Positions 22,075-35,843 of a stretch of DNA of 64,000 bases are shown piece after piece. The notes under the pieces are model-generated. The model was not told where the DNA came from and made no database searches. It saw only the letters and a program-made list of their open reading frames with translations. Numbering within the stretch: position 1 is the stretch's first letter; each line of letters starts with the position of its first letter. The position numbers and the translations under genes were made by a program. Source of the DNA: a virus; IMG/VR virus record IMGVR_UViG_3300032675_000001, positions 296,684 through 360,683 of that record. One strand, 5' to 3'.

Positions 22075-22761
22075 TCAATCCATTTGATTAATTAGATTTT
22101 CAAGATCATTTAAAAGATTAATAGGTAAGGTTTCGGTGTATCCATCTGAACACTCATTCTTGGTAACTGCGCCATTGACATATCCAAAATGAGATTTGAT
22201 CTTAGATTCCCACTCAAGTCCCTTTTCTCCAGTATCAAAATCTTTTATATAATGTACAGTATATGCCCCATTCTTGGTCCGGTGACTGGCTAGTCTCCTT
22301 TTTAGATTAGTTGTCACCCCAAATTTAATAAAAGTATCAAATAGCAATACATAACCAGTTGATGGTTTAGTTGGATTAAATCCCTGTCCATTGCAGTTTG
22401 GGCATGGTGATTTTCTTTTTATACGATTTGGAACCACTGACCATGTATATCCACATGTAAGGTGGGTATGTGATATTTTTGAGTGTGTGCCATTATATTC
22501 TTCATTGACGATAAAATCTGGATTATTTAAACTCAACTGTTCTACATATTCATCATGTGTTAATTTTTGATTTCTAGCACACTTTGGACAGCCTCTTCCT
22601 ATTTTAATTTTTTCTGGTTTGGCCATCCACGTATGTCCACATCTGAGACTGGTGTATGATATTTTTGTAGTATTATTGATGTAGTTTTCGTTAACTATCA
22701 ATTCAGGTCTGTGTATACGTAAAAATTCTACGTATTCTTCATGTGTCATTTTTTTTCTCAT
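22075..22761 (-). CDS. GIY-YIG-type endonuclease with two zinc-ribbon modules
   Basis: Two copies of a 55-60 residue module (HRPELIVNENYIN...TSLRCGHTW...GCPKC and NPDFIVNEEYNG...LTCGYTW...CPNC) with Cys pairs that should bind zinc, followed by a compact GIY-YIG-like domain from about residue 135 (GYVLLFDTFIKFGVTTNLKR, then EWESKIKSHFG). Such free-standing proteins are common mobile genes in large phages. It is a tandem paralogue of the next gene, which has only one module. Confidence 0.75.
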   Translation of the reverse strand: MRKKMTHEEYVEFLRIHRPELIVNENYINNTTKISYTSLRCGHTWMAKPEKIKIGRGCPKCARNQKLTHDEYVEQLSLNNPDFIVNEEYNGTHSKISHTHLTCGYTWSVVPNRIKRKSPCPNCNGQGFNPTKPSTGYVLLFDTFIKFGVTTNLKRRLASHRTKNGAYTVHYIKDFDTGEKGLEWESKIKSHFGYVNGAVTKNECSDGYTETLPINLLNDLENLINQMD

Positions 22762-22804: not shown

Positions 22805-23293
22805 TCAACATAGTTGTTCAAGTTCTTCAAGTAGGAAAAGGGGTAGTGTCTCGGTATATCCACAGGGGCACATCTCTTTGGAAACTGCACCTTGGGGATA
22901 TCCAAAATGATTTTTTATTCGTTTTTCCCACTCAATAGCATCTTTTCCGTTAGTGAATGTTTTTGTATAATGCACCGTGTGTTTTCCGTTCTTTGCTCGG
23001 TGATCTTTTAGTCTGTTCTTTAATATGTTAGTAATACCATATTTTAAGAATCCATCAAAAATCAGAATATAAACGGTTACTGGCTTAGTGGGATCAAACT
23101 TGCATATACGACACATGGGACAGCCTCTCCCAGATTTAATATTGGTTGGTCGCGCCAGCCATTCATGTCCACAAGTAAGGTGGGTGTGTGATATTTTTGT
23201 TGCGGCATTGATATATCTACCGTTAACTACAAACTCTGGTCTATGTGTGCGGAGATATGCTTCGTATTCTTCCTGAGTTACCGTTTTTGTCAT
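22805..23293 (-). CDS. GIY-YIG-type endonuclease with one zinc-ribbon module
   Basis: 162 aa paralogue of the preceding protein: one module (HRPEFVVNGRYIN...LTCGHEWLARP...GCPMC) and the same C-terminal nuclease domain (TVYILIFDGFLKYGITNILK, then EWEKRIKNHFGYPQGAV). Probably arose by tandem duplication with later loss or gain of one module. Confidence 0.75.
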   Translation of the reverse strand: MTKTVTQEEYEAYLRTHRPEFVVNGRYINAATKISHTHLTCGHEWLARPTNIKSGRGCPMCRICKFDPTKPVTVYILIFDGFLKYGITNILKNRLKDHRAKNGKHTVHYTKTFTNGKDAIEWEKRIKNHFGYPQGAVSKEMCPCGYTETLPLFLLEELEQLC

Positions 23294-23340: not shown

Positions 23341-23928
23341 TCACTGGAAAATGTGATGATTCTTTTCGCCGTAAATCTTGATGTATTTACCAGCTAACAT
23401 ATCAGCCATAGCCTCAATAGGACTACCGGGATAGCTGGCACCGGGCTTGATCATACCGATTTCATCTTGACGAACATGGACCAGTTCATGAAAAACTGTG
23501 CGTAGTATGTCAACAAGATTTCTGTCCTTGGCATAAACCCATACTGAACCTTGTCCCTGAACATGCCCACCAGTGTGATGATTGTCTTGGGCATCTTGTG
23601 TATCATAGCTAAGTTGAATTTTTGGTAGATGTTGAATGTGAAGTCTTCTGCCAGCCCATTCAGCAAACTTTCTGACTTCTTCTCCAAGATCATCAGTTGG
23701 GTTTCCGCTAGTTTCGTCTAAATCTCTAACGTCTTCAATCCAATCGGCGGGAACTTTATGGTAAGTTCTTTTAAAAATATCATGAAGTGCTTCATCGGTA
23801 AGTCTATGCTTTTTTGCAATGCTGCGAATCAATCTATCAATGGTATCATAATCATGCTTCTCCAAAGAAGGTAGTTTCTTGGCTAGTTCATGTGCAGCCG
23901 CTGCATGGATGATGTCTTCTGTTAACAT
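23341..23928 (-). CDS. HELVH zinc metalloprotease-like protein, 195 aa
   Basis: The zinc-binding HExxH motif is seen as FHELVHVRQDEIG (about residue 155), followed by IEAMADMLAGKY, where a downstream Glu could be the third ligand. Start at ATG 23928 rather than the longer frame, because GATAAATAC lies four bases before it. Context: late gene beside the outer-membrane barrel and curli block. Could process virion or envelope proteins; substrate unknown. Confidence 0.65.
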   Translation of the reverse strand: MLTEDIIHAAAAHELAKKLPSLEKHDYDTIDRLIRSIAKKHRLTDEALHDIFKRTYHKVPADWIEDVRDLDETSGNPTDDLGEEVRKFAEWAGRRLHIQHLPKIQLSYDTQDAQDNHHTGGHVQGQGSVWVYAKDRNLVDILRTVFHELVHVRQDEIGMIKPGASYPGSPIEAMADMLAGKYIKIYGEKNHHIFQ

Positions 23929-23932
23929 GAAT

Positions 23933-23941
23933 GTATTTATC
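23933..23941 (-). promoter_or_regulatory. Late promoter abutting the metalloprotease start
   Basis: GATAAATAC with only ATTC between it and the ATG; no ribosome site fits in between. Confidence 0.6.
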
Positions 23942-23945
23942 CTAC

Positions 23946-23980
23946 TAAAAACAATAACGGCGGAGAAATTAATCCCCGCC
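23946..23980 (-). terminator. Terminator after the outer-membrane barrel gene
   Basis: GC-rich 8-bp stem (arms 23973-23980 and 23959-23966) with a short loop and a T-rich tail on the minus strand. Confidence 0.75.
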
Positions 23981-24004
23981 GCCATCATTTGACTGTGAAC
24001 GCTA

Positions 24005-24481
24005 TTAGAAGCGAACAGAAGTCGTAGCAACTACGCCGTTGTTCTTGACACCGCCAAGATCAGTATGAGCATACTGAACACCAACTGAGAATGGTCCTAC
24101 AACATTCAAATCAACGCCCCCAGTTGCACGAAGCCCCTGAAGATTGTGTGCATGAAGATCGCGTAGGTTATCATAACCAAGACCAGCATATACAAGAGTA
24201 TAACCAGTCACTTCATAACCAAGACGAGCGCCAACATTGACATCGCGACGATCAAACACGTTGTCAAGGCCAGTTTCCAAACCAGCAGTGATCGGACCAA
24301 CAACCTTGGTGTCGTAACCGAGTTCAACACCATAAGTGAAGTCACGATTTGACGGAATGTTTGAGATGTCCTGATAACCAACTTCACCAGTTACGCGAGG
24401 ACCAACAAAGCTATCTGCCATTGCTGGAGCGGCAGTTGCGGCGGATACAGCCAATAGTGCTGCTGTGATTAACTTCTTCAT
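24005..24481 (-). CDS. Outer-membrane beta-barrel protein, 158 aa
   Basis: A signal peptide (MKKLITAALLAVSAATAAPAMA) precedes about eight alternating amphipathic strands (GEVGYQDI, TYGVELGYDT, VNVGARLGYEV, VYAGLGYDNL, VGVQYAHTD) and a C-terminal Phe, the usual signal for barrel assembly. Likely an eight-stranded OmpA/OmpX-like barrel placed in the host outer membrane. It has its own host-type promoter and terminator, so it is expressed apart from the curli block beside it. A role in surface masking or superinfection exclusion is inference. Confidence 0.75.
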   Translation of the reverse strand: MKKLITAALLAVSAATAAPAMADSFVGPRVTGEVGYQDISNIPSNRDFTYGVELGYDTKVVGPITAGLETGLDNVFDRRDVNVGARLGYEVTGYTLVYAGLGYDNLRDLHAHNLQGLRATGGVDLNVVGPFSVGVQYAHTDLGGVKNNGVVATTSVRF

Positions 24482-24573: not shown

Positions 24574-26631
24574 TTATTTTGATGTTGCCCTGTACACCCC
24601 ATCCCAATCTCTAGGTTTTGGTGGATTCTGTTGTATCTCTTTGATCCTATCTTGCATCATTAAGTAATAAGATTTCAGTACGCCGTTCCAGTTATTTTCC
24701 ATAGCCTGTGCAAAACCCAATGCTCTGTTCCAAGCACCCATTCTATATGCATCCATGAATCGTTGATGTGCTAGTTGCGCTTTTGCGTCCTTGTGCTCCA
24801 ACACCGTATAGATTCTGGAAGGTTCTGTTTTGCCCTTGACTGCGATAAGATCAAGTTCAACGACCTGATACTTGTCTTTCACGTATTCTGCGGTTTTGGG
24901 ACCAATAATGATTTTAACCCCGTAAGGCTTGCTTTGACCTTCCAGCCTACTTGCGAGATTAACGCCATCACCCAGACAAGTATAATCAAACCGCTGGTCG
25001 CTGCCCATATTGCCGACAACAACAGTATCAGTATTAATACCGAGACCCATTCCAAAAGCTGGTACGCCTTCTTTTTTGACTTCATTGTTAAATTCCTCCA
25101 ATGCTTTCAACATCTGAAACGCTGTTTTTACTGCATCCAATGCGTGTTTCTCATTGTTTACAGGTGCGTTCCAGAATGCCATTTGAGCATCACCTATATA
25201 CTTATCAAGCGTACCTTTGTTCTCAAGAATTGCTTTGGTCATCGCTGTCATGTAGCGATTCATAATCTTGGTCAATCCTTGAACGTCCTTGCCATAATGT
25301 TCTGAGATTGTAGTGAAACCACGAACATCCGTGAACATGATGGACAGTTCTTGCTCAGTGCCTCCTAGCTGTAATAGTTCTGGTTGACGCTGTAGTTGTG
25401 CAACAAGATCAGGACTCAAATAAGTTCCAAACTGCTTCTTGATCTGCTGCTTTTGTAGAAACTCATTGATGAATTTTACACTGTAAACATGCAAATAAAT
25501 AATGAGAGCAGACAAGAAGTTGAATGAAATATCAAACAATATCTTATTATGACTATATAGATATACAGGAGTATAAGCATATCCGATCAGTAATATTCCA
25601 ATCCAAACAATGGAATATCTTAGATTAGACAAGCCTATAACTGCTAGTGAAAGAAGCACAAATGCCAGAAGATCAACCAGCCCAACCCAATTCGGAATTG
25701 ACACAGAATCCTGATTTATCAGAGTCTGAAGAATGCTGGCCTGAACCTGATGGGGCATTTTGGCACCAGCCGGAGTCGCTACTGGGTTTGCGATCCCGCT
25801 CGCAGTCACACCGAGTAGAACGATCTTTCCATCGAGACGAGGAATATTCTCGCCTACTTCAAACGATGAGAATTCGGAATTCGGATTAATAAACACACGA
25901 CCATATTCATCTGTAGGAATTTTACCAAACTGTGGAACACGAACAGCCTCAACACCAGTCTCATTTATTTTCGCTTGATAGCTTGGATCACCAGCAGCGA
26001 CACGCAACAGTTCTAAGGCGAACGAAGGGTAGTATTCGCCATTTGAAGTCCCTAATAAAGGCATTCGGCGCACAACCCCATCCGTCTCGGGAAGAGTTGT
26101 TGTTATGCCGACACCTACAGCGGATTGTTGAAGAACTGGAATGTTATCAAGAACACAAGGATAGTTCGGAAGAAACTGAGTTGGTTTCCCGTCACCGATT
26201 ACAGCAACACCTGTGCGGCGAGTCTGACGATTATCCCTAGTGCAATCGGTTGAAAGTGTTTGGCTAAGCACTACAGGGTGATTTGCTAACGCATTTGCAA
26301 AGGCATCATCACCATTGAATCTATCTTTTTCCGGATAGAGAATGGTGCTTCCAACAAGACCAGCATGACCATTATCGTAAATGTCATTGATAATCTTGGC
26401 ATAAGTGTCTCTAGGGAATGGATATTGTCCGTATTTTTCTATTGCTTTCTCGCCAATATTTGCAATGACGATTTGATCAGAATGTACAGGCTTGCCTAGC
26501 ATAAGATAATCATAAAACTTAAGCTTCATCGCATCAACTAGATACGGATTGGAAAGCTTGACGATAAGAAGTAATGTTAAAGTGAAAAGAGCCATCCAAG
26601 GACTCAATAGGATTTTTCGTAGTTTTTTCAT
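24574..26631 (-). CDS. CHASE2-domain adenylate/guanylate cyclase, 685 aa
   Basis: A transmembrane receptor cyclase. After one N-terminal membrane helix (about residues 11-30) comes a periplasmic CHASE2 sensor (to about 300: FYDYLMLGKPVHSDQIVI, then FPRDTYAKII, and the end motif KIVLLGVTASG). Three membrane helices follow (about 315-385), then a class III cyclase domain (about 425-600). Catalytic residues are present: both metal Asp (MFTDVRGFT and YIGDAQMAF), the base-binding Lys (LDKYIGD), and YTCLGDGVNLASRLE with the transition-state Asn and Arg. Lys in the base pocket favours ATP. The frame is complete. It is the last gene of the curli block. A membrane cyclase is very unusual in a phage. 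Confidence 0.9.
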   Translation of the reverse strand: MKKLRKILLSPWMALFTLTLLLIVKLSNPYLVDAMKLKFYDYLMLGKPVHSDQIVIANIGEKAIEKYGQYPFPRDTYAKIINDIYDNGHAGLVGSTILYPEKDRFNGDDAFANALANHPVVLSQTLSTDCTRDNRQTRRTGVAVIGDGKPTQFLPNYPCVLDNIPVLQQSAVGVGITTTLPETDGVVRRMPLLGTSNGEYYPSFALELLRVAAGDPSYQAKINETGVEAVRVPQFGKIPTDEYGRVFINPNSEFSSFEVGENIPRLDGKIVLLGVTASGIANPVATPAGAKMPHQVQASILQTLINQDSVSIPNWVGLVDLLAFVLLSLAVIGLSNLRYSIVWIGILLIGYAYTPVYLYSHNKILFDISFNFLSALIIYLHVYSVKFINEFLQKQQIKKQFGTYLSPDLVAQLQRQPELLQLGGTEQELSIMFTDVRGFTTISEHYGKDVQGLTKIMNRYMTAMTKAILENKGTLDKYIGDAQMAFWNAPVNNEKHALDAVKTAFQMLKALEEFNNEVKKEGVPAFGMGLGINTDTVVVGNMGSDQRFDYTCLGDGVNLASRLEGQSKPYGVKIIIGPKTAEYVKDKYQVVELDLIAVKGKTEPSRIYTVLEHKDAKAQLAHQRFMDAYRMGAWNRALGFAQAMENNWNGVLKSYYLMMQDRIKEIQQNPPKPRDWDGVYRATSK

Positions 26632-26641
26632 GGCTCTATCC

Positions 26642-27835
26642 TTAATGTTTTACATATGAATATCCAGTGCAGGTTCCAGTAGTACAAGTAATGCTCATTG
26701 ATGCGCTATCAGTAGTAGTAGGATTATCCTGAACGACAGTTACTCCGATATTTGAACTATTTAGCGTAAGAGAAAACATTTTCTGTGCAGTGCCAGCTTG
26801 TGTGGCACTTACCGTATTTCCACTAGTTGGTATATTAAGTTCTAAGAAGTGATTGCCCGTTCCAGTCTGTGATGTGGTGATGTTATTACCTGTTCCTGTA
26901 ACGTTCTGAAATAGATTTTGTCCACCTGATTGAGTGTTGTTCAATATGTTTGAGTTGCCGTTAATGATAGCCTGCTCATAGTTGGAGTTTCCTGCCTGAT
27001 TTACTGTCATATTATTTCCAGTTCCAACAATATTAGCTTCAACTAGGTTATGATATCCATTCAATGTTTGACCACCTTGTGTCACGTTCAAGCTATTTGA
27101 TGCACCGTTAATAACCAATGCTGTGCCATTAGGACCTCTTACAGCATTGTAATCACCTGTTTGAGTAACAGTTACACTAGTGTTATCTCCACCGTATTGA
27201 TTGATGTAGACAGTGTTATAACCTATAGTTGAGGTTTGGTTTATATAGTTCTGCTCTATTGAACTGATAACAGCAGGAGGATAAGTGGGTGCAGGAGGTG
27301 CCGCAGATTGTCCTGCTGCTAATGGAGTAGTTGAGCCACTGCCTGCAAAAGTATTTGTTTGCGCAACAGTTGGGTTTAGAGTACCAGTAAAGCTGAATCC
27401 ATTTGAGTTAGGGAATCCATAGTCAGTGCTGAAGACTGTGCCATTTAGATTGGCATTGGTGAAGAAAAAGAAATGATGTCCTAGACTGTCTGTTCCCTCA
27501 ACATCCAGTTTACCCGGACCAAGATCAGCCGCAACGGAACCATTGCTATTATACACAATCATTTCCCAGGGATAGCTAGGATTGCCACTAGCGATAAATC
27601 CGATATATTGCGTTGACGATAAGTGATAAGGTGATCCTGTGTTCCAAGAAGTGCCTATGCCACTTAGGCTATAGATTTGACAAGTTGTGGTATACAAGCA
27701 AGCACTGACATTCCATTGCGTGTCACTGAACTGTGCAGCACCGAACTCCAGATTGGAAAAAGAGGTTGCCATAGCAGGAACAGTGAATAACCTTAAACAT
27801 AGAATGAAAAGTAGAATCTTATTAAAGGTTTTCAT
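26642..27835 (-). CDS. Secreted curlin-like repeat protein, 397 aa
   Basis: Signal peptide ending near PAMA. Residues about 25-190 form a non-repeat domain; then come repeats of roughly 20-24 residues rich in Asn, Gln, Gly and Thr, for example NTSVTVTQTGDYNAV, NSLNVTQGGQ, NNMTVNQAGNSN, NNITTSQTGTGNH. The spaced S/T-x-x-Q-x-G-x-x-N pattern is the amyloid repeat of CsgA/CsgB curlins. Likely substrate of the CsgG pore encoded two genes upstream. Its start overlaps the FecR gene stop. Confidence 0.75.
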   Translation of the reverse strand: MKTFNKILLFILCLRLFTVPAMATSFSNLEFGAAQFSDTQWNVSACLYTTTCQIYSLSGIGTSWNTGSPYHLSSTQYIGFIASGNPSYPWEMIVYNSNGSVAADLGPGKLDVEGTDSLGHHFFFFTNANLNGTVFSTDYGFPNSNGFSFTGTLNPTVAQTNTFAGSGSTTPLAAGQSAAPPAPTYPPAVISSIEQNYINQTSTIGYNTVYINQYGGDNTSVTVTQTGDYNAVRGPNGTALVINGASNSLNVTQGGQTLNGYHNLVEANIVGTGNNMTVNQAGNSNYEQAIINGNSNILNNTQSGGQNLFQNVTGTGNNITTSQTGTGNHFLELNIPTSGNTVSATQAGTAQKMFSLTLNSSNIGVTVVQDNPTTTDSASMSITCTTGTCTGYSYVKH

Positions 27836-28974
27836 TTGTTAGGTGCTCCATTCTGGACTATTGTTATTGTTCCTTGTGGTCTACCATCACCTTGATTAGT
27901 CCATTTTTGATTCATAAAGTTGTATGAATCTACCAGTCCATTTTGAGAAACCACTACCTGTACTTGTGTATTTAGCGGTAACCAAACAGTAGCAGCCTGC
28001 TCTTTGTCTTGAGAAAGTTCTGAATAAGCCCATCCTATTTGAACAAGTTTCTTGTTCAATACAGGAGAAACATTGGTGTGTATTGTTTGTTTTGGAAGAG
28101 TTGCATTGTTTTCCAAATAAACCTGTTCCAATTGATCTGGAGTAGCGGGCTTGGCAGCAATCAATACTGCAACTTCTTCAAATGGATCACCACCTGAGTC
28201 TGGGTCTTGGTTTGCATCAGCAGCCGCCTGTGAAGGGTTCAACGAAAGCTTCAATGCGTTTTTTGATATCTTGTTAAGACTATCACCAGAATCGGTAGTG
28301 GGTGCTGAAATCTGTAGTGTATTGTTTACCTGCTTCATTGTCATATTTACTTTGACCGGAGGAGCAGGTGGAGTGAAACTGTTTTCCACCATAGTTGCTT
28401 GGAAAGGTCTGGACAGAGTTACTACTCCAGCAGCAGTTAGAACCTCAATAGACCCGGTTGGGCATTCATCTGTTATCTTTGTGGGGTCCTTGTCATCATA
28501 ACAGCTAGGTAGTAGAATGACAGTTGTTTTGCCAGTTTCATCAACTGACATCAAAAAGTCTGTGCCACGAACACCAATCGTTGCAGTTGGAGTATGTATA
28601 TTAACACCACCGGGATTGCCATGTGCGATTTTACCAGATGCATATCGCACTGTACCTAATGCAACTTTAAGACCAAGCTTGCCTTTGTTTGAGTTTCCAC
28701 CATCATATACGAAGTCATCTATTACAAGCTTACTGTTTTCGGTGATATTAACCGTAGTGCTATCAATAAACGTGATCTTGAACTTACCTTGACTGTTGGT
28801 GGTGATCGTATCCATCTTTTCAATCCCGCTACCTTTAGCAGCAGGATGTATCGTATTTGATCTTTTGATTTGACCTCCGCCTCTAAAATCTGTTACCGAC
28901 CCGATTGATGCCATCGCAGGGGTCGATAATAGAAGTAATAGATTAATGGCCAGTCTTAATATTGAACGTGCCAT
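27832..28974 (-). CDS. Secreted FecR-domain protein, 380 aa
   Basis: Signal peptide ending STPAMA. The FecR-type domain spans about residues 25-170: IGSVTDFRGGGQIKR, GKFKITFIDSTTVNI, LKVALGTVRYASGK and TPTATIGVRGTDF, the last being the hallmark of exported FecR domains. The C-terminal part is Pro- and Lys-rich with a final strand segment. In bacteria such proteins often neighbour CHASE2 proteins and surface polymers; a periplasmic sensor or scaffold role is likely. Confidence 0.8.
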   Translation of the reverse strand: MARSILRLAINLLLLLSTPAMASIGSVTDFRGGGQIKRSNTIHPAAKGSGIEKMDTITTNSQGKFKITFIDSTTVNITENSKLVIDDFVYDGGNSNKGKLGLKVALGTVRYASGKIAHGNPGGVNIHTPTATIGVRGTDFLMSVDETGKTTVILLPSCYDDKDPTKITDECPTGSIEVLTAAGVVTLSRPFQATMVENSFTPPAPPVKVNMTMKQVNNTLQISAPTTDSGDSLNKISKNALKLSLNPSQAAADANQDPDSGGDPFEEVAVLIAAKPATPDQLEQVYLENNATLPKQTIHTNVSPVLNKKLVQIGWAYSELSQDKEQAATVWLPLNTQVQVVVSQNGLVDSYNFMNQKWTNQGDGRPQGTITIVQNGAPNK

Positions 28975-29749
28975 TGTTACCGGTACTCGTTATGTTGATT
29001 ACTGTTTCAGAAGCACCATACTGTTGAGTAGTAAGAGTGTTACCTGTTCCAGTAAAGCTGGCATATAGAGAGTGACCATATGTTCCACCGGCATCAGTTT
29101 GTGTCACGTTAGTAGTATTGTTGCTACCAGTGAACAATAATGTTTGTGACGAGTTAGGCGAGTTATCAGTTACAGTAAATGCGTTATTGTTGCCATTGGT
29201 GTTGATTGTTTGCGTAATATTTGCAGCAGACCCATGAAAATTCAATGAGTTGTTGTTACCATCAAATACAACATTAAGATTCAACTTATTACAGTTTGAA
29301 TCGCCCTGCTGTGTGCCACATGCAATGACAGCAGTATTATTATTACCAATCTGTTGAATAGTAGCAGTTGCGCCACTACCTGTTCCAGTAGAACCTACAA
29401 TACCCATTAGTAATGAGTTTGAATTGCCAGTTTGAATAACTGTAACAGTTTGATTGTCACCAGAAAGATAAATTGGATTTACCAAAGTACCTGTAATGTT
29501 AGATACACCTGTTTGTTGGATATTTACATTTACGTTATTACCTGACTGATCAATGTATACTTTATTTGTTGTTGCTACTGTGCCTGCTTCTGTTGCATTG
29601 GGTGAAGTTGCTACGATTGCAGGAGGATTTGGTGCAGTAGGAAGTACCGCAGTTGCTGGAGTGCCAGCATCAACTGATGCTGTTTGTGCAAACGCAGCAC
29701 TAGATACTAGCAACGAACCAAGAATTAATGCATATTTTATTATTTTCAT
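28943..29749 (-). CDS. Secreted curlin-like repeat protein, 268 aa
   Basis: Signal peptide ending SSAAFA. An Ala/Pro/Thr-rich linker is followed by repeats such as NNVNVNIQQTGVSN, NQTVTVIQTGNSN, ATATIQQIGNNN, NNTTNVTQTDAGG and NTLTTQQYGASE. The Q-x-G-x-x-N curlin pattern is clear. Directly follows csgG. By analogy with E. coli one of the two curlin-like proteins could nucleate (CsgB role) and the other polymerise (CsgA role); which is which cannot be told. Confidence 0.78.
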   Translation of the reverse strand: MKIIKYALILGSLLVSSAAFAQTASVDAGTPATAVLPTAPNPPAIVATSPNATEAGTVATTNKVYIDQSGNNVNVNIQQTGVSNITGTLVNPIYLSGDNQTVTVIQTGNSNSLLMGIVGSTGTGSGATATIQQIGNNNTAVIACGTQQGDSNCNKLNLNVVFDGNNNSLNFHGSAANITQTINTNGNNNAFTVTDNSPNSSQTLLFTGSNNTTNVTQTDAGGTYGHSLYASFTGTGNTLTTQQYGASETVINITSTGNNGTFNIKTGH

Positions 29750-29760
29750 CTTTGTAATCC

Positions 29761-30588
29761 TTACTTTGTTGTAGTTGTTTGTGCGGTTGCCTTAAAGTGC
29801 CAAAGCCCTTTCTTTTCGCCGCTCTTTATTAGTTCTGCTACACCGAGTTCAATGGCTGCTCTTATAGCATAACTTCCAGCTTCATTAGTCGTTTGTTGTC
29901 CATCAAGTTCAAATGCCTGTGTTCCCAAATCAAAGAGTTTAAACACTGTTATACCCTCTGAGGTAGACAAAACATTTTTATTGACAGTGACACTATCTAA
30001 TACTTCGCCGGTTTGTGTAGATACGAGTCGCATATTGATTACGACCATATCTTCACTGTATTGAGTATTCGGACCTATGCCTAGATAACGAACCCCATTA
30101 CCTCCTGTTTTAGTATCACTGTTATAATCAATGATACCACCTTCAATGATCAAGCCCGCTACCGTTAAAGGTGGCAGCGGTGTTGCTTTATCACCATATT
30201 CTTGTTCACGCATCTGACGAATAAGTTGACGTTCCTTTATGAGACTGTCAATACCCACACGTTCAACTGGTCTAAACCATTTGCCATTGTCAACATCTGA
30301 TAGAGTTTTAATAAGATATGCGTCAGCACCCTGAGTTACTGCGGTACTGAACGTGCTTAGAGTTGATGATGGCTTACGCTGTCCAGTCTTGTCAGTAAAT
30401 GCATATACTGCAACTGGAATCGGTGGACCTTCAGGATCAGGGATGCCCTTGAATACCTTTTCATTGGCAAACTTAGACACTACAGGCTTTGATCTAAGCA
30501 TTTCCGTGTCTTTGTTCAGTCTAGGGTGAATGCCTCCGATACAACCGGACAAAAGAAGCATTAATGGCAAAATCAATAGTTTTTTCAT
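29761..30588 (-). CDS. csgG: Curli secretion pore lipoprotein CsgG
   Basis: Lipoprotein signal with lipobox LLLSGC at residues 11-16. The alignment to E. coli CsgG holds by eye along the chain: VAVYAFTDKTGQRKP (VSVYNIQDETGQFKP), FSTAVTQGADAYLIKTL, WFRPVERVGIDSLIKERQLIR, LTVAGLIIEGGIIDYNSD, KTGGNGVRYLGIGPNTQY, MRLVSTQTGEVLDSV and ETGV-like IELGVAELI near the end. Length 275 aa against 277. It would form the outer-membrane export channel for the curlin-like proteins. Confidence 0.93.
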   Translation of the reverse strand: MKKLLILPLMLLLSGCIGGIHPRLNKDTEMLRSKPVVSKFANEKVFKGIPDPEGPPIPVAVYAFTDKTGQRKPSSTLSTFSTAVTQGADAYLIKTLSDVDNGKWFRPVERVGIDSLIKERQLIRQMREQEYGDKATPLPPLTVAGLIIEGGIIDYNSDTKTGGNGVRYLGIGPNTQYSEDMVVINMRLVSTQTGEVLDSVTVNKNVLSTSEGITVFKLFDLGTQAFELDGQQTTNEAGSYAIRAAIELGVAELIKSGEKKGLWHFKATAQTTTTK

Positions 30589-30599
30589 GTCAAGGCTCC

Positions 30600-31055
30600 T
30601 TAAAACGCAAATGTCGCAATAGGAACATTGACCACTGTTTGATTGCCTGAACTGTCAACTACCGTGAGTTGCACATTGGTGCCTGTTTTTAGGTAACTAA
30701 TGGTGTTTCCATCTAGATTAAATGTTCCTGCGTTGGATGATCCTCCGGCTTGGAACAAGTTGTTTGACAACTGTGTTGCAAGCTGTGCATACACTTGTGA
30801 AGTAAACAGAGAAATAAACTTAGCTAGAGGAGTGTTTGATGCAGCAGCGGCGGCGGCTGCTTGAGCAGATGCTAATGCATTTGCATTTGAGGCAGCATTA
30901 GAAGACTCTAACGACTGCACCGAAAGTACATGGTTAGACCAGTTGATGCCATTAAATGAAGGGTCTTTAAACTGCTGAATCAGTGGATCAGCATGTGCCG
31001 TTCCTGCAATACTAAGTGCTGTGATTAGAGAAAGTGCTTTTAATATTTTTCTCAT
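30600..31055 (-). CDS. csgF: Curli assembly factor CsgF
   Basis: Signal peptide, then IQQFKDPSFNGINWSNHVLS, matching the CsgF N-terminal plug (FQFRNPNFGG...), which binds inside the CsgG channel. A low-complexity Ala/Ser/Asn stretch follows, then the C-terminal strands NVQLTVVDSSGNQTVVNVP, matching LQLNVTDRKTGQTSTIQV. Length 151 aa against 138. It sits directly upstream of csgG with the same order as expected for a functional pair. No CsgE is seen. Confidence 0.88.
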   Translation of the reverse strand: MRKILKALSLITALSIAGTAHADPLIQQFKDPSFNGINWSNHVLSVQSLESSNAASNANALASAQAAAAAAASNTPLAKFISLFTSQVYAQLATQLSNNLFQAGGSSNAGTFNLDGNTISYLKTGTNVQLTVVDSSGNQTVVNVPIATFAF

Positions 31056-31072
31056 TATTTCTCTCCAAATAT

Positions 31073-31402
31073 TTAACTACTTCCGCCAGAAGCCTCTTGA
31101 TCTGCTTCTTTGTGATGTACACGAGGTTGATTGATAATCTTTTCGGCCTCAACACGCTCATGTTCAATGGTCTTTCCGCGCAAGTGTAATACCGTATTAA
31201 CTTTTTGATTAAGTCTGATCAAGTCATTGTCTAGCATTCTGATACGATCAATCAGCGCGATCAGAACAGTGTTTGCTTCGCTGAGAACCGGCTTGACTTC
31301 TTTTGTCGCCCATTCCCAAACGTAGAACACGAAATATCCCATGCCGCCAGCAGCAATGATGGGGAATCCATACTTGTTTACTAGTTCTGCTATTTCACCC
31401 AT
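31073..31402 (-). CDS. Small holin-like membrane protein, 109 aa
   Basis: One hydrophobic helix (about residues 11-29: FPIIAAGGMGYFVFYVW) is followed by an amphipathic coiled region (TVLIALIDRIRMLDNDLIRLNQKV). A paralogue of the next gene upstream, with the same GFPI-A-A-G-x-GYFVF core. Could be a holin-type or membrane-scaffold protein of the curli block. TAATG-type coupling links the pair. Confidence 0.6.
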   Translation of the reverse strand: MGEIAELVNKYGFPIIAAGGMGYFVFYVWEWATKEVKPVLSEANTVLIALIDRIRMLDNDLIRLNQKVNTVLHLRGKTIEHERVEAEKIINQPRVHHKEADQEASGGSS

Positions 31403-31686
31403 CAGTCGCGTCTCGCATCTGTCTTGCCATCAGCACGAGCGATTCGTTCAACATCTGGTCTTAAACCCAACGCATTTGAAACAACAGTGTCAATGCGAAT
31501 GACATCGTGATTCATAGTCTTAACACGATTGTCTAGTGCGGTGATGATACCAGCCATACCTTTTACGCTACCCGTGACACCAGCAAGAATAAACTTTAGG
31601 GTGAGGAACACAAAGTAACCAGCCCCTAATGCAGCCGCAATAGGAAATCCAACATCACCAATAACTTTAAAGATATCTGTACCCAT
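31402..31686 (-). CDS. Small holin-like membrane protein, 94 aa
   Basis: First gene of the curli block. Hydrophobic helix VGFPIAAALGAGYFVFLTLKFI then a helical tail with ALDNRVKTMNHDVIRIDTVV. Clearly related to the 109-aa neighbour. Function unproven. Confidence 0.6.
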   Translation of the reverse strand: MGTDIFKVIGDVGFPIAAALGAGYFVFLTLKFILAGVTGSVKGMAGIITALDNRVKTMNHDVIRIDTVVSNALGLRPDVERIARADGKTDARRD

Positions 31687-31702: not shown

Positions 31703-31731
31703 AAAACCCCAGTGTTTTGTTTACACTGAGG
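31703..31731 (-). terminator. Terminator upstream of the curli block
   Basis: Minus-strand stem CCTCAGTGT/ACACTGGGG (8 of 9 paired) with an AAACAAA loop and a TTTT tail. It ends the 100-aa gene's transcript, so the curli block needs its own promoter. ACTAAATAATAG just upstream of the stem is a weak late-type match. Confidence 0.75.
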
Positions 31732-31769
31732 TGTTACTATTATTTAGTCATTTTGGGTATTTTTAAGTA

Positions 31770-32133: not shown

Positions 32134-33582
32134 TTATTTTTGAAAAAGTGAAAATAAATTCCCAGTGACATAGTTCTTATCTTGTCCAAACATACTATGT
32201 TGTAAATGCTTGATAATATCTGGGGTAAGGTGTCTTGCTCTCATTCCCCCACGAGGAAAAAGATGCACTTCTACTGGTTCATCGCCTTCAACCTTTTGAA
32301 TAGCCATCATGCGATTGCGCCCTTCATGACCACTGACTCTGGCATCTTTACTGAAGTCACCGTCTTCCCATTCTCGTGGAATATCTATGGTCAAAAAGGG
32401 TGAACCCAATGCTCCACCTTGTTCAATATGACCTGCAATGTGATCAACGCTTGTGGGATTGTTTAATCTGTGAGCAAGCTTTAAAAACATACTCGGTTTC
32501 ATCAAAACACGCAATCCCATGTAATCCACGTTAGCATTATATGGAACAGAACCAAGCCCGTTTTCGTTGTCTACTTTGTATTCATCAAGTTCTGATTCTT
32601 TTATGTCTTTTGGCATTGCATAAAAGATATGCTTACCTACAGCGGCAAGTTTTTTAGTTCCTTTTGCCCAATATGGATGAATATCTTTGGTGTGATAAAA
32701 GACTGCACCGTGTGTTGGGTCAGGAGCATGACCAGACATGATCTTCTTGGCAAGCTCATAGCTCTTGGCCCATAGCTTGTAATCAAGACCTTTGCCAGTG
32801 TTTTCAAGCTTCTTTAACCATGTATTGAAATCTTGACCACCGGGTGCTTTTCTGGACTTGATGATCTTATCAAGATGTTCCATTTCTTGTGCATATTTGT
32901 AGTTTGGATCGTTGTGGTTCCAGCAACTAAACTGACTTGGTTTTGTGGCAACACCAACAATACCTTGACCAAAACGTCTTGCGTGTGCCTTATCATTGGC
33001 GCGATTCTTAATGACATTACCGATTGCTAGCATACCATTTGCGCCTTGATCCCTTGCTTCTCCCCACATTGTGTGGGCAAGAATCTTAGTGGGGTCTTGG
33101 TGTACTGGTTGTGTTGCTGCTGGGAGATCAAAACGAACAACAGGATCAAACTGCTGCTGTTTATTGTGCATAGCCAATCCGCCTGCCGCCAAAGCCGCTG
33201 CGCCGCCTGCGGCTAGTGCACCCTTCTTAGCCCAATCGGGAAAAGCTTCATCAAGCGATTCATTCATACCTAAAGGAAGATTGGCAACATGCTGCAATGG
33301 AAGATTGACTAGTTTCAATGCACCACTCGCAAACTGTCTCCAGTAACCGGTATTATGAATATGCTGCATCATGTAATACAGATATCTTGCATCAAGAACA
33401 TCAGTAGCCGTTACCTTGATACCGATATTTTCTGGTGAATATTCCTTGGTTGGTGTGCCTACCGATTTGTCACTACCTTTGCGCTGAAGCCAGAAATCAG
33501 CATCAGGAAAGTTTGTCTTCACTGTTGCTAAATCTTTGAGCCTTACGCCAGCGGATTCTGTTATGAACTCTTTCGCTCTCAT
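32134..33582 (-). CDS. Capsid-targeted SleB-type cell-wall hydrolase fusion, 482 aa
   Basis: The ATG overlaps the previous stop (TAATG). The first residues, MRAKEFITESAG, fit a T4 capsid-targeting peptide with a gp21-like cleavage site (I-T-E before S-A). Next comes a domain with DADFWLQRKGSDKSVG and TDVLDARYLYYMM, resembling type I specificity-subunit-like phage domains, then an Ala-rich hydrophobic helix (about 130-150). The SleB/cell-wall hydrolase core is TMWGEARDQGANGMLAIGNVIKNRA (split here around residue 185), with the catalytic Glu of GEA. The C-terminal domain (from about 340) has GSPFLTIDIP and GHEGRNRMMAI, common in phage structural polyproteins. Likely injected with DNA. Confidence 0.7.
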   Translation of the reverse strand: MRAKEFITESAGVRLKDLATVKTNFPDADFWLQRKGSDKSVGTPTKEYSPENIGIKVTATDVLDARYLYYMMQHIHNTGYWRQFASGALKLVNLPLQHVANLPLGMNESLDEAFPDWAKKGALAAGGAAALAAGGLAMHNKQQQFDPVVRFDLPAATQPVHQDPTKILAHTMWGEARDQGANGMLAIGNVIKNRANDKAHARRFGQGIVGVATKPSQFSCWNHNDPNYKYAQEMEHLDKIIKSRKAPGGQDFNTWLKKLENTGKGLDYKLWAKSYELAKKIMSGHAPDPTHGAVFYHTKDIHPYWAKGTKKLAAVGKHIFYAMPKDIKESELDEYKVDNENGLGSVPYNANVDYMGLRVLMKPSMFLKLAHRLNNPTSVDHIAGHIEQGGALGSPFLTIDIPREWEDGDFSKDARVSGHEGRNRMMAIQKVEGDEPVEVHLFPRGGMRARHLTPDIIKHLQHSMFGQDKNYVTGNLFSLFQK

Positions 33583-35816
33583 TATCCAATCCGCTCTGCT
33601 CGTATATGTCGAGAATTCCAAGTTGGGTTTTCTCGTCTAGCGATATTTATTGCTTCTTCCGCACTTGAAGCAGTCACATTGGATATACCACTGGCGTCTC
33701 CTCTATGGACTCTCCATAACGCTGGTGCTGTTTCTGTATTTTCAGATGATGAAGTATTACCATTTTCTGCTTCTTCCCAGCGAGCATTAAATCGCATGAT
33801 CCAATTAATCTGAGCATCAGTTAGGTTTTCATAGTCTTGATCATGTGGGTCAACGTGAGGAAGACCTTGTTGATCGCACCATAGTTCATATTCACGAGTT
33901 AGTTGATCAATAGCTTGCGCTCTTGGTCCATCCTGTTGAGGAGCATATGCATTGACATCATCTGAAGGAGTAGGAGGTGTTTGGCGGCGACCGGGTTCGG
34001 CAACGTCAACAGAAATATTCTGTAGTGGCATAGTTCTCCACACGTGATTGCGAGCCGCCAGCCTATTATATGCCACTTCTGAATTGGGACCAGATGCGTA
34101 TGCAGGAGCAACTGAACCATCACGTGTCATAAATCTATATGTTGTTTCACCCTCGGCAGGCTCATCAAGAATGCCCTGTGGATCATTTTCACCAGATAGT
34201 ATCTTAGCTAGTTCATCGTTCGTTTTACGATTGTACTTCTTCTTTGCAAGAGCACCGGCAAGTTCTTCCTTATTAAGTTCACCGGCCATATATCTAGCAA
34301 ATAAACTCATTTCTGCCTTAGGGTCTTTTGGTTTAAGTAACTTATATAATCCCTTTAAGTATTCTTTACGATACTTCTGTGGATCACAAGCTGCATCAAG
34401 TGCTACGACAAATCTCAACACAGTATTTTCAATCTTACTAAAGTTAGAGTTTAACCAATCATTACCGGGACCACGAAACTCAACCCAGTTTTCTTTAGTA
34501 TTAATACTGGTGAACTTTCTGGTTGACCCATTATGAATAATCTTACTTGCTATTTCTTCCATATTACTGCGTAATTTTTCAAATAATCTTTCTGTTTCCT
34601 GTGGATTATCTTTTGCTTTATTTTTAATAATATCAAGTGCAGACTCACAGTAAGAGTTAGCTATACGACCAAACTGGTTAAGAACATACTGATCTCCGGA
34701 AAGAATAGCAAGCTTTACATAATCCAAGTTACTTTTACTATAGTTAGGAACACTTACGTTCATGTGTAAACCGCATGAACTATTAGTGTATGCACCAACG
34801 TCATCTGCCCATTCTTTAATCTTGGAGATATCATCAAACATTTCATCTACTGGCAGTGGAGGACTAATAAACTCTAATCCTGCCTCATCTGAACCATATG
34901 CTCTTAAACTAGAATCTGGTTCAATAGTATACCCATCAGATGTTCTGCGAGCACCGTGATATGATGAACTCCAGTTTACGCTGCGCCCGATGGCGTCTTC
35001 AAATCTGCTAGCGACTTCTTCAATGGATTCGCCGCCATTGTTGTTATATACTGGTTCAGGATCACTCCAGCGGGTCCATGCTAAATCATTATTACGGTTC
35101 ATTCGGTGATTATATACGTCATCCATATCATTGATACCGATGCTCTCTAGGAACTCTTCTTGATCAACCTCATCACGATCAAATCCGTATATGTATGGGC
35201 TATTTTCATCTGGGTCGGCTTCATCGTCTTCATCATAACTATAATAGTTTGGAATCATGTCGCCGTCTTTAAATGACTCGTATGCTTGATCGTAATAGTT
35301 GTAGCCAGCAGCATTGCCGGGTCTTTTCCATTCCTCATCGGCTACTTCTTCGTAATCTTCTTTAGTGGGAATACGATCACCCAATAGGTCTTCTGGTTTA
35401 TCTAGATAATCAGCAATATCTGATGGATCAGCATTTTTCTTAATCCAGTTTAAAAGATATTCCTTGCCTCTTTTTTCCCAATCTTTTTTGACATATGTTT
35501 CTAAATATTCATCAAACTTTTCTTCTAATACCCGTCTTAATTCGGCAATAGTGGATCGGGTATTGTGATCACGTTCATCAAAGAAATCAACAATGTCATC
35601 AATGCTTCTAGCAGGCTCATTTTCATCGTAACGTTCTGGGTCTTGGTAGTCTGGTTCATCATCCTCGGTGTTAACGTCAGGAACGATCATTTCAAACTCC
35701 ATACCAACCTTAGCATCAATCTGATTAGCCAGTTTTTTAAGGTTAGTAGGACTCATCTCCACTTCAAGGAGTTGTTGTTGTGCTTCGTATAGGTCAAGGA
35801 AATGTTTTGCTCTCAT
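33582..35816 (-). CDS. Capsid-targeted amidoligase-family protein A, 744 aa
   Basis: Start MRAKHFLDLYEAQQQLLEVE is nearly the same as in the next gene and fits a prohead-targeting peptide. The amidoligase (COOH-NH2 ligase, glutamine-synthetase-like) core is marked by KVGMEFEMIVPDV (metal Glu, about residue 40), GLEFISPPLP, CGLHMNVSVPNY and WVEFRGPGNDW with the phosphate-binding Arg. A long acidic insertion lies between the first motifs. The C-terminal 40 residues hold one Y/W-R-V...SAEEA-IA repeat. It may ligate amino groups to carboxylates on peptides or proteins; substrate unknown. Confidence 0.75.
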   Translation of the reverse strand: MRAKHFLDLYEAQQQLLEVEMSPTNLKKLANQIDAKVGMEFEMIVPDVNTEDDEPDYQDPERYDENEPARSIDDIVDFFDERDHNTRSTIAELRRVLEEKFDEYLETYVKKDWEKRGKEYLLNWIKKNADPSDIADYLDKPEDLLGDRIPTKEDYEEVADEEWKRPGNAAGYNYYDQAYESFKDGDMIPNYYSYDEDDEADPDENSPYIYGFDRDEVDQEEFLESIGINDMDDVYNHRMNRNNDLAWTRWSDPEPVYNNNGGESIEEVASRFEDAIGRSVNWSSSYHGARRTSDGYTIEPDSSLRAYGSDEAGLEFISPPLPVDEMFDDISKIKEWADDVGAYTNSSCGLHMNVSVPNYSKSNLDYVKLAILSGDQYVLNQFGRIANSYCESALDIIKNKAKDNPQETERLFEKLRSNMEEIASKIIHNGSTRKFTSINTKENWVEFRGPGNDWLNSNFSKIENTVLRFVVALDAACDPQKYRKEYLKGLYKLLKPKDPKAEMSLFARYMAGELNKEELAGALAKKKYNRKTNDELAKILSGENDPQGILDEPAEGETTYRFMTRDGSVAPAYASGPNSEVAYNRLAARNHVWRTMPLQNISVDVAEPGRRQTPPTPSDDVNAYAPQQDGPRAQAIDQLTREYELWCDQQGLPHVDPHDQDYENLTDAQINWIMRFNARWEEAENGNTSSSENTETAPALWRVHRGDASGISNVTASSAEEAINIARRENPTWNSRHIRAERIG

Positions 35817-35820
35817 TGAG

Positions 35821-35829
35821 GTATTTATC
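35821..35829 (-). promoter_or_regulatory. Late promoter abutting the amidoligase A start
   Basis: GATAAATAC with CTCA before the ATG at 35816; there is no room for a ribosome site. Confidence 0.6.
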
Positions 35830-35843
35830 AAACTTTAGGATTG

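Follow-up and report, generated by a model that had tools for sequence, protein, structure and literature searches.

A curli-type gene block with a modular second curlin, FecR and a CHASE2 adenylate cyclase in a T4-type jumbo phage

The 64-kb stretch of viral DNA analysed here (the window) is the final part of a 360,683-base virus record and carries, on its minus strand at 24574-31686, a block of eight open reading frames (ORFs) related to bacterial curli (type VIII) secretion. In reading order, these encode two small membrane proteins (sm1 and sm2), CsgF, CsgG, a curlin-repeat protein (cur1), a FecR-domain protein, a second curlin-repeat protein (cur2), and an adenylate cyclase with a CHASE2 domain. 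With moderate confidence, we interpret the block as encoding an adhesive amyloid made by infected cells and coupled to cyclic AMP (cAMP), in which a CsgE-less curli fibre would display adhesive heads. The successive intergenic distances from sm1 to the cyclase are -1, +17, +11, +11, -32, -4, and +10 nt, and because of this spacing of -32 to +17 nt the eight ORFs very probably form one operon. The original prediction, which was made from the sequence alone, had described eight tightly coupled genes with these identities, and the ORFs, their spacing, and their Pfam matches agree with it. A curli gene set of this kind has already been described in phages, and the window represents a new member from a jumbo phage.

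Curli components and the modular second curlin

The CsgG homologue (29761..30588, minus strand, as are all genes of the block) is predicted to be the outer-membrane pore lipoprotein. It matches PF03783 at an expectation value (E) of 1e-50 and E. coli CsgG structures over their full length, with an end-to-end alignment to residues 1-270 of PDB 3x2r (E 8e-46) that includes the LSGC lipobox. The original prediction had named a CsgG failing its profile across the pore-forming segments as the result that would speak against it, and the match found spans the whole protein. The CsgF search that it had proposed returned PF10614 at 7e-17, above the Pfam cut-off, for the protein at 30600..31055, which also has a signal peptide. 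With a CsgG lipoprotein pore, a CsgF coupling factor, and curlin-repeat substrates, the window is predicted from its sequence to encode a type VIII secretion system. CsgE (PF10627) has no match in the 360-kb record. Alphaproteobacterial curli likewise lack CsgE, which therefore does not define the wider curli family (PMC3521004). The E. coli csgBAC-csgDEFG genes share CsgG, CsgF, and curlin-repeat substrates with the window block, whereas the block adds FecR, the CHASE2 cyclase, sm1/sm2, and a headed curlin, with no CsgC or CsgD seen in it. In Caulobacter, the CsgG relative HfaB puts this type of pore to use in adhesin export as part of the HfaA/HfaB/HfaD holdfast anchor. The window protein is closer to CsgG; NCBIfam HfaB matches it at 5e-6, but the CsgG model scores far better.

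Both curlin-like proteins are recognized at the level of orthologues and profiles rather than single sequences. Cur1 (28943..29749), a putative CsgA/B-like substrate with a signal peptide, matches PF07012 (Curlin_rpt) at E 0.077, which is below the Pfam cut-off, and cur2 (26642..27835), which joins an N-terminal domain to a curlin-repeat region, gives no match to that family on its own. However, PF07012 is matched by 10 of 23 cur1 orthologues and 11 of 42 cur2 orthologues, and searches with the cur1 and cur2 profiles hit 8c50, a curlin-repeat protein of solved structure, at 6e-7 and 4e-16, respectively. In addition, cur1 matches NCBIfam CsgA at 2e-4. A simple count of curlin motifs reaches significance for cur2 (5 versus 0.25 in shuffles), whereas the result for cur1 is marginal, so that the curlin identity of cur1 rests on the profiles. 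The AlphaFold2 model covers cur2 (predicted local distance difference test, pLDDT, 80.5) and has regular short strands across residues 207-396 (pLDDT mostly 77-92), as expected of the beta-solenoid that the original prediction anticipated.

Ahead of these strands, the cur2 model contains a beta-rich domain at residues ~25-165 (best part ~71-165), followed by a disordered or flexible linker (182-203). The original prediction assigned the protein families of the block correctly, but noted neither this separate domain nor the secreted nature of FecR. At the same position in other phages, 10 of 42 cur2 proteins carry an F5/8-type-C domain and 2 of 42 a PA14 domain, other or unknown domains also occur there, and the cur2 of phage HTVC008M (AGE60352) is itself a PA14-curlin (PA14 match 2.7e-6). 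A structure search of viral models returned phage proteins named 'Curlin associated' and 'PA14 domain-containing'. Among relatives with cyclases 76-85% identical, cur2 nevertheless varies, with a window-type head in one contig (L003), a PA14 head in another (L011), no head in a third (L005), and no cur2 at all in a fourth (L006). Three contigs (L076, L077, and L081) share the window-type head at 57-59% identity, and in these FecR is 35-37% and cur1 33-38% identical. The higher identity of the head than of FecR, together with head variation among close relatives, amounts to domain exchange in cur2. We conclude that cur2 is modular, with a conserved predicted curlin solenoid behind exchangeable N-terminal domains. 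Counting the domain types by single-linkage clustering was dropped, since multi-domain proteins became merged. Glycans on other cells or in the matrix are the usual ligands of F5/8-type-C and PA14 domains, and by analogy with these families in its relatives the cur2 head is probably glycan-binding.

FecR, the cyclase, and the small membrane pair

The FecR-domain protein (27832..28974; PF04773 1.6e-12) consists of a signal peptide, a FecR fold at residues 25-196, a linker, and a C-terminal beta domain at 302-374 (AlphaFold2 pLDDT 77). Its FecR fold matches 4m0h and the PupR periplasmic domain at E about 1e-4, and its C-terminal strands are curlin-like, with invariant Q344 and Q374. Neither a second hydrophobic or membrane segment nor a cytoplasmic anti-sigma domain was found in the protein. 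A signal peptide without a further membrane segment sets it apart from canonical anti-sigma regulators. The CHASE2 protein (24574..26631) matches PF05226 at 3.6e-38 and PF00211 (Guanylate_cyc) at 1e-21, and its catalytic set is complete, comprising metal-binding D435 and D481, base-selecting K477 and T551, and transition-state N558 and R562. With these residues present, it is assigned by sequence to the class III adenylate cyclases. In 13 of 41 aligned viral CHASE2 cyclases, the position of T551 is occupied by Asp and that of N558 by Ser, which suggests a second cyclase subtype with altered activity. In 20 alphaproteobacterial genomes, a FecR gene lies no more than 4 kb away from 16 of the 39 CHASE2 genes listed, compared with 0.44 expected under uniform placement, a figure whose P value overstates independence because the genomes are related. 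As this adjacency is far above chance, FecR is more likely to be the periplasmic partner of the CHASE2 cyclase than an iron regulator.

The first two genes encode paralogous proteins (27% identical; both phrog_18771), each combining a hydrophobic segment with a tail that resembles a coiled coil: sm1 (31402..31686) has 94 aa and a single transmembrane segment, and sm2 (31073..31402) has 109 aa and a segment that scores below the threshold used. Relatives of sm1 are encoded by at least 593 viral contigs, and an sm2-like match is also present in 79 of the 79 sm1 loci read. Wherever the flanking sequence is long enough, the curli block accompanies sm1, at times with sm1/sm2 on the opposite strand, which rules out that sm1 is a general phage gene without a link to curli. 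Compared with HTVC008M and the Methylophilales phage Melnitz, the best-conserved parts of the window block are sm1 (52 and 60% identity) and sm2 (50 and 54%), followed by CsgG (42 and 43%), the cyclase (38-39%), and cur1 (27-28%). Among 80 GTDB csgG loci, sm1/sm2 are present at only six, on contigs that look phage-like. From this distribution, sm1 and sm2 are a dedicated pair of predicted membrane proteins linked to the curli block. It is almost certain that earlier work labelled these two proteins 'histidine kinases', as they occupy that slot in HTVC008M. A histidine kinase needs DHp and ATPase domains; no kinase family was matched at E<=0.5 across 26 sm1/sm2 members including those of HTVC008M and Melnitz, and no HATPase_c domain was found in the 360-kb record, and we therefore reject this annotation.

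Carrier phage and distribution of the block

The record holds divergent homologues of T4-type core genes, and its major capsid protein (MCP) is nearest to those of Vibrio phage 2.275.O, Pseudomonas PA5oct, and the GAP32/CBB group (65-68% identity), which places the carrier among RaK2/PA5oct-like T4-type jumbo phages. No tRNA genes, sought as host clues, were found within the window. A search of 50,697 phage records found no csgG in isolated phages of the RaK2/PA5oct-like group; the only carriers were HTVC008M, four strains of Melnitz, and an unverified contig of 1.5 kb that bears the label Salmonella phage S.Kent 1-2-1 (OR851715.1). The csgG of this contig is ~40% identical to that of the window, and its origin is doubtful.

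Dozens of viral contigs carry the block in the same gene order. Within the capsid group of the window phage, it occurs in L188 (259 kb, MCP 95% identical) and L235 (285 kb, 72%); for a third member, L251 (282 kb, 79%), the stretch read covers sm1/sm2 only. Three further carriers (L017, L021, and L029) have an MCP only 36-40% identical to that of the window phage, yet their CsgG (67-68%) and cyclase (69-70%) are as close to those of the window as are the CsgG (65%) and cyclase (69%) of L188. Since unrelated phages match the window as well as a relative with a 95% identical MCP does, the block moves between phage lineages. It is not a common bacterial operon, as FecR or the CHASE2 cyclase lies beside csgG at only 7 of the 80 GTDB loci, six of them the phage-like loci with sm1/sm2. 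The seventh, in Hyphomonas sp. TMED17, is the sole bona fide bacterial case and has csgF-csgG-curlin-FecR-CHASE2 in the same order amid ordinary chromosomal genes, but without sm1/sm2 and cur2; the phage module could plausibly derive from an operon of this type. Phage curli blocks, complete or nearly so, lie on six contigs of GTDB representative metagenome-assembled genomes (L085, L086, L101, L118, L122, and L133), one such genome, Sphingobacteriales SW22112_bin_1, contributing two contigs. In L086, L118, and L122, the block has T4-type phage genes next to it, and the six contigs look as if they came from phages and were binned with bacteria by mistake.

Phage curli genes were first encountered in other carriers. 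Pelagimyophages with csgF/csgG and accompanying hypothetical genes were reported in 2020 with 'sibling capture' as the suggested role (Zaragoza-Solas et al., PMC7029224), in line with what the original prediction had noted, and curli genes were listed in a marine Bacteroidetes T4-like virus in the same year (PMC7198788). In pelagi-podophages and -myophages, Wittmers et al. (2022, PMC9599517) found the genes arranged as 'HK'-csgF-csgG-csgA/B-FecR-csgA/B-adenylate cyclase; they also reported phage curli metatranscripts and alphaproteobacterial ancestry, and put forward the idea of superinfection defence. Their pelagiphage module, including that of HTVC008M, shares its gene order with the window, where sm1/sm2 fill the 'HK' slot, but it differs in that its carriers are pelagiphages rather than a RaK2/PA5oct-like jumbo phage and its upstream genes are called kinases; the text of PMC9599517 makes no mention of adhesive N-terminal domains on the second curlin. 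Melnitz has all eight genes in the order of the window. The joint presence of substrates, a sensor, and a second-messenger enzyme, which the original prediction took to be new, had thus been published, and the HTVC008M and Melnitz records carry these genes. Relative to the open-access papers found, the new elements are the jumbo carrier and lineage transfer, the modular cur2, the sm1/sm2 pair, and the FecR-CHASE2 adjacency.

Around the block, a terminator-like hairpin directly upstream of sm1 (31706..31732, minus strand) matches the consensus, with a hairpin total not above shuffles; its position between the block and the upstream gene suggests that the block is transcribed separately, as a unit by itself. 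A T4-type late promoter upstream of the block was sought and rejected, with TATAAATA not enriched and CTAAATAA at chance level. Directly downstream of the cyclase lies a gene for a 158-aa outer-membrane beta-barrel protein (24005-24481, minus strand; PF13505 2e-11), which takes other positions in some related contigs. Beyond it, also on the minus strand, are a 229-aa ORF with a metalloprotease-like motif, FHELVHVRQDE, and no Pfam match (23341-24030), and a pair of related ORFs (22075-22761 and 22805-23293) that match treble-clef zinc fingers and, weakly, GIY-YIG, and that are probably mobile endonuclease-like genes arranged in tandem. On the other side of the block, a 749-aa protein with an Amidoligase_2 domain (33582-35831, minus strand; 6e-10) adjoins a cell-wall hydrolase (32134-33621).

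Proposed mechanism and alternative explanations

In the mechanism that we propose, the infected cell would build a complete CsgE-less type VIII system during infection, with CsgG and CsgF serving as outer-membrane pore and nucleation cap. Cur1 would polymerise into the fibre, and cur2 would enter it through its curlin repeats, displaying an adhesive and probably glycan-binding N-terminal head whose specificity may be exchanged between phages. The resulting sticky cell would retain sibling cells, particles, or polymer, presumably to the benefit of the phage. The secreted FecR protein would pair with the CHASE2 domain of the inner-membrane cyclase, coupling the state of the pore or fibre to cAMP. 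As no cyclic nucleotide-binding domain was found in the 360-kb record, the cAMP is assigned to the host's own CRP-type regulators, and sm1/sm2 would be dedicated inner-membrane accessories of curli assembly. A more far-reaching version, which we put forward only tentatively, treats the block as a transferable cAMP-coupled amyloid adhesion device, with lectin-like heads swapped in the manner of receptor-binding domains and sm1/sm2 needed for assembly or control, so that the infected cell rather than the virion would be re-targeted.

Several points weigh against the adhesive amyloid. Neither cytograms nor transmission electron microscopy revealed clumping of Melnitz-infected cells, and no fibres were seen (PMC9004378). 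The N-terminal domain of the window cur2 has no fold or sequence relative in the PDB, in isolated phages, or in databases outside these contigs. Cur2 is not essential, being missing from some relatives, and L188, for all its MCP identity, is without it. Contact between CHASE2 and FecR is deduced from gene neighbourhood alone, in genomes that share ancestry.

The closest competitor, to which we give roughly one chance in four, is surface shielding, in which fibres and cur2 heads would hide phage receptors or bind to them, preventing superinfection by competing phages, with aggregation as a side effect. This proposal (PMC9599517) draws on the same gene evidence, and variation of the heads is as expected under phage competition. 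However, no receptor match was found, and the F5/8-type-C and PA14 families have the usual ligands given above; on account of these head families, aggregation or attachment is preferred over shielding. Both are preferred over a pore model because the substrates are retained. The Melnitz paper stated that substrates are missing and proposed a lysis pore (PMC9004378); in its broader form, CsgG/CsgF would serve uptake or set the time of lysis, as a gated pore or a pinholin, and fibres would be irrelevant. The lack of a CsgE gate in the record, weak holin-like PHROG matches of sm1/sm2 (E 0.01-0.05), and the cell-wall hydrolase adjoining the block favour such a pore, but its premise is wrong: the Melnitz GenBank record annotates two curlin-repeat proteins, one on each side of FecR. 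Curlins with exchangeable heads are moreover kept across phages, and CsgG sits in the outer membrane, making the pore model improbable. The amyloid coating of infected cells envisaged by the original prediction, already published as an idea (PMC7029224, PMC9599517), appears to fit the data better than this pore-only model.

Two alternatives concern FecR. It could anchor the fibre, its folded domain acting as a periplasmic retention plug and its C-terminal strands joining the curlin fibre; the fold resembles the domain that retains and anchors an ice-binding adhesin (5ix9, template-modelling score 0.75 over 61 columns), a LapA retention model matches at E 0.04, and the invariant Q344 and Q374 lie in the curlin-like strands. 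Yet this sequence support is weak, the C-terminal domain is without a solved relative, and FecR-CHASE2 pairing outside curli operons would go unexplained, leaving anchoring slightly less probable still than the pore. The published annotation of FecR as an iron-citrate-type transcription regulator with sm1/sm2 as histidine kinases controlling the operon (PMC9599517) has a FecR domain match behind it but is very improbable, given a signal peptide with no other hydrophobic segment or cytoplasmic domain in FecR, and, in proteins of only 94 and 109 aa, no trace of a kinase.

The function of phage curli has been debated since 2020 without agreement, one paper favouring fibres and another a lysis pore without substrates. 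The modular cur2, the lineage-hopping block, and the sm1/sm2 pair turn this debate into testable predictions, namely that heads would be displayed on fibres, that binding would depend on the head, and that FecR would contact CHASE2.

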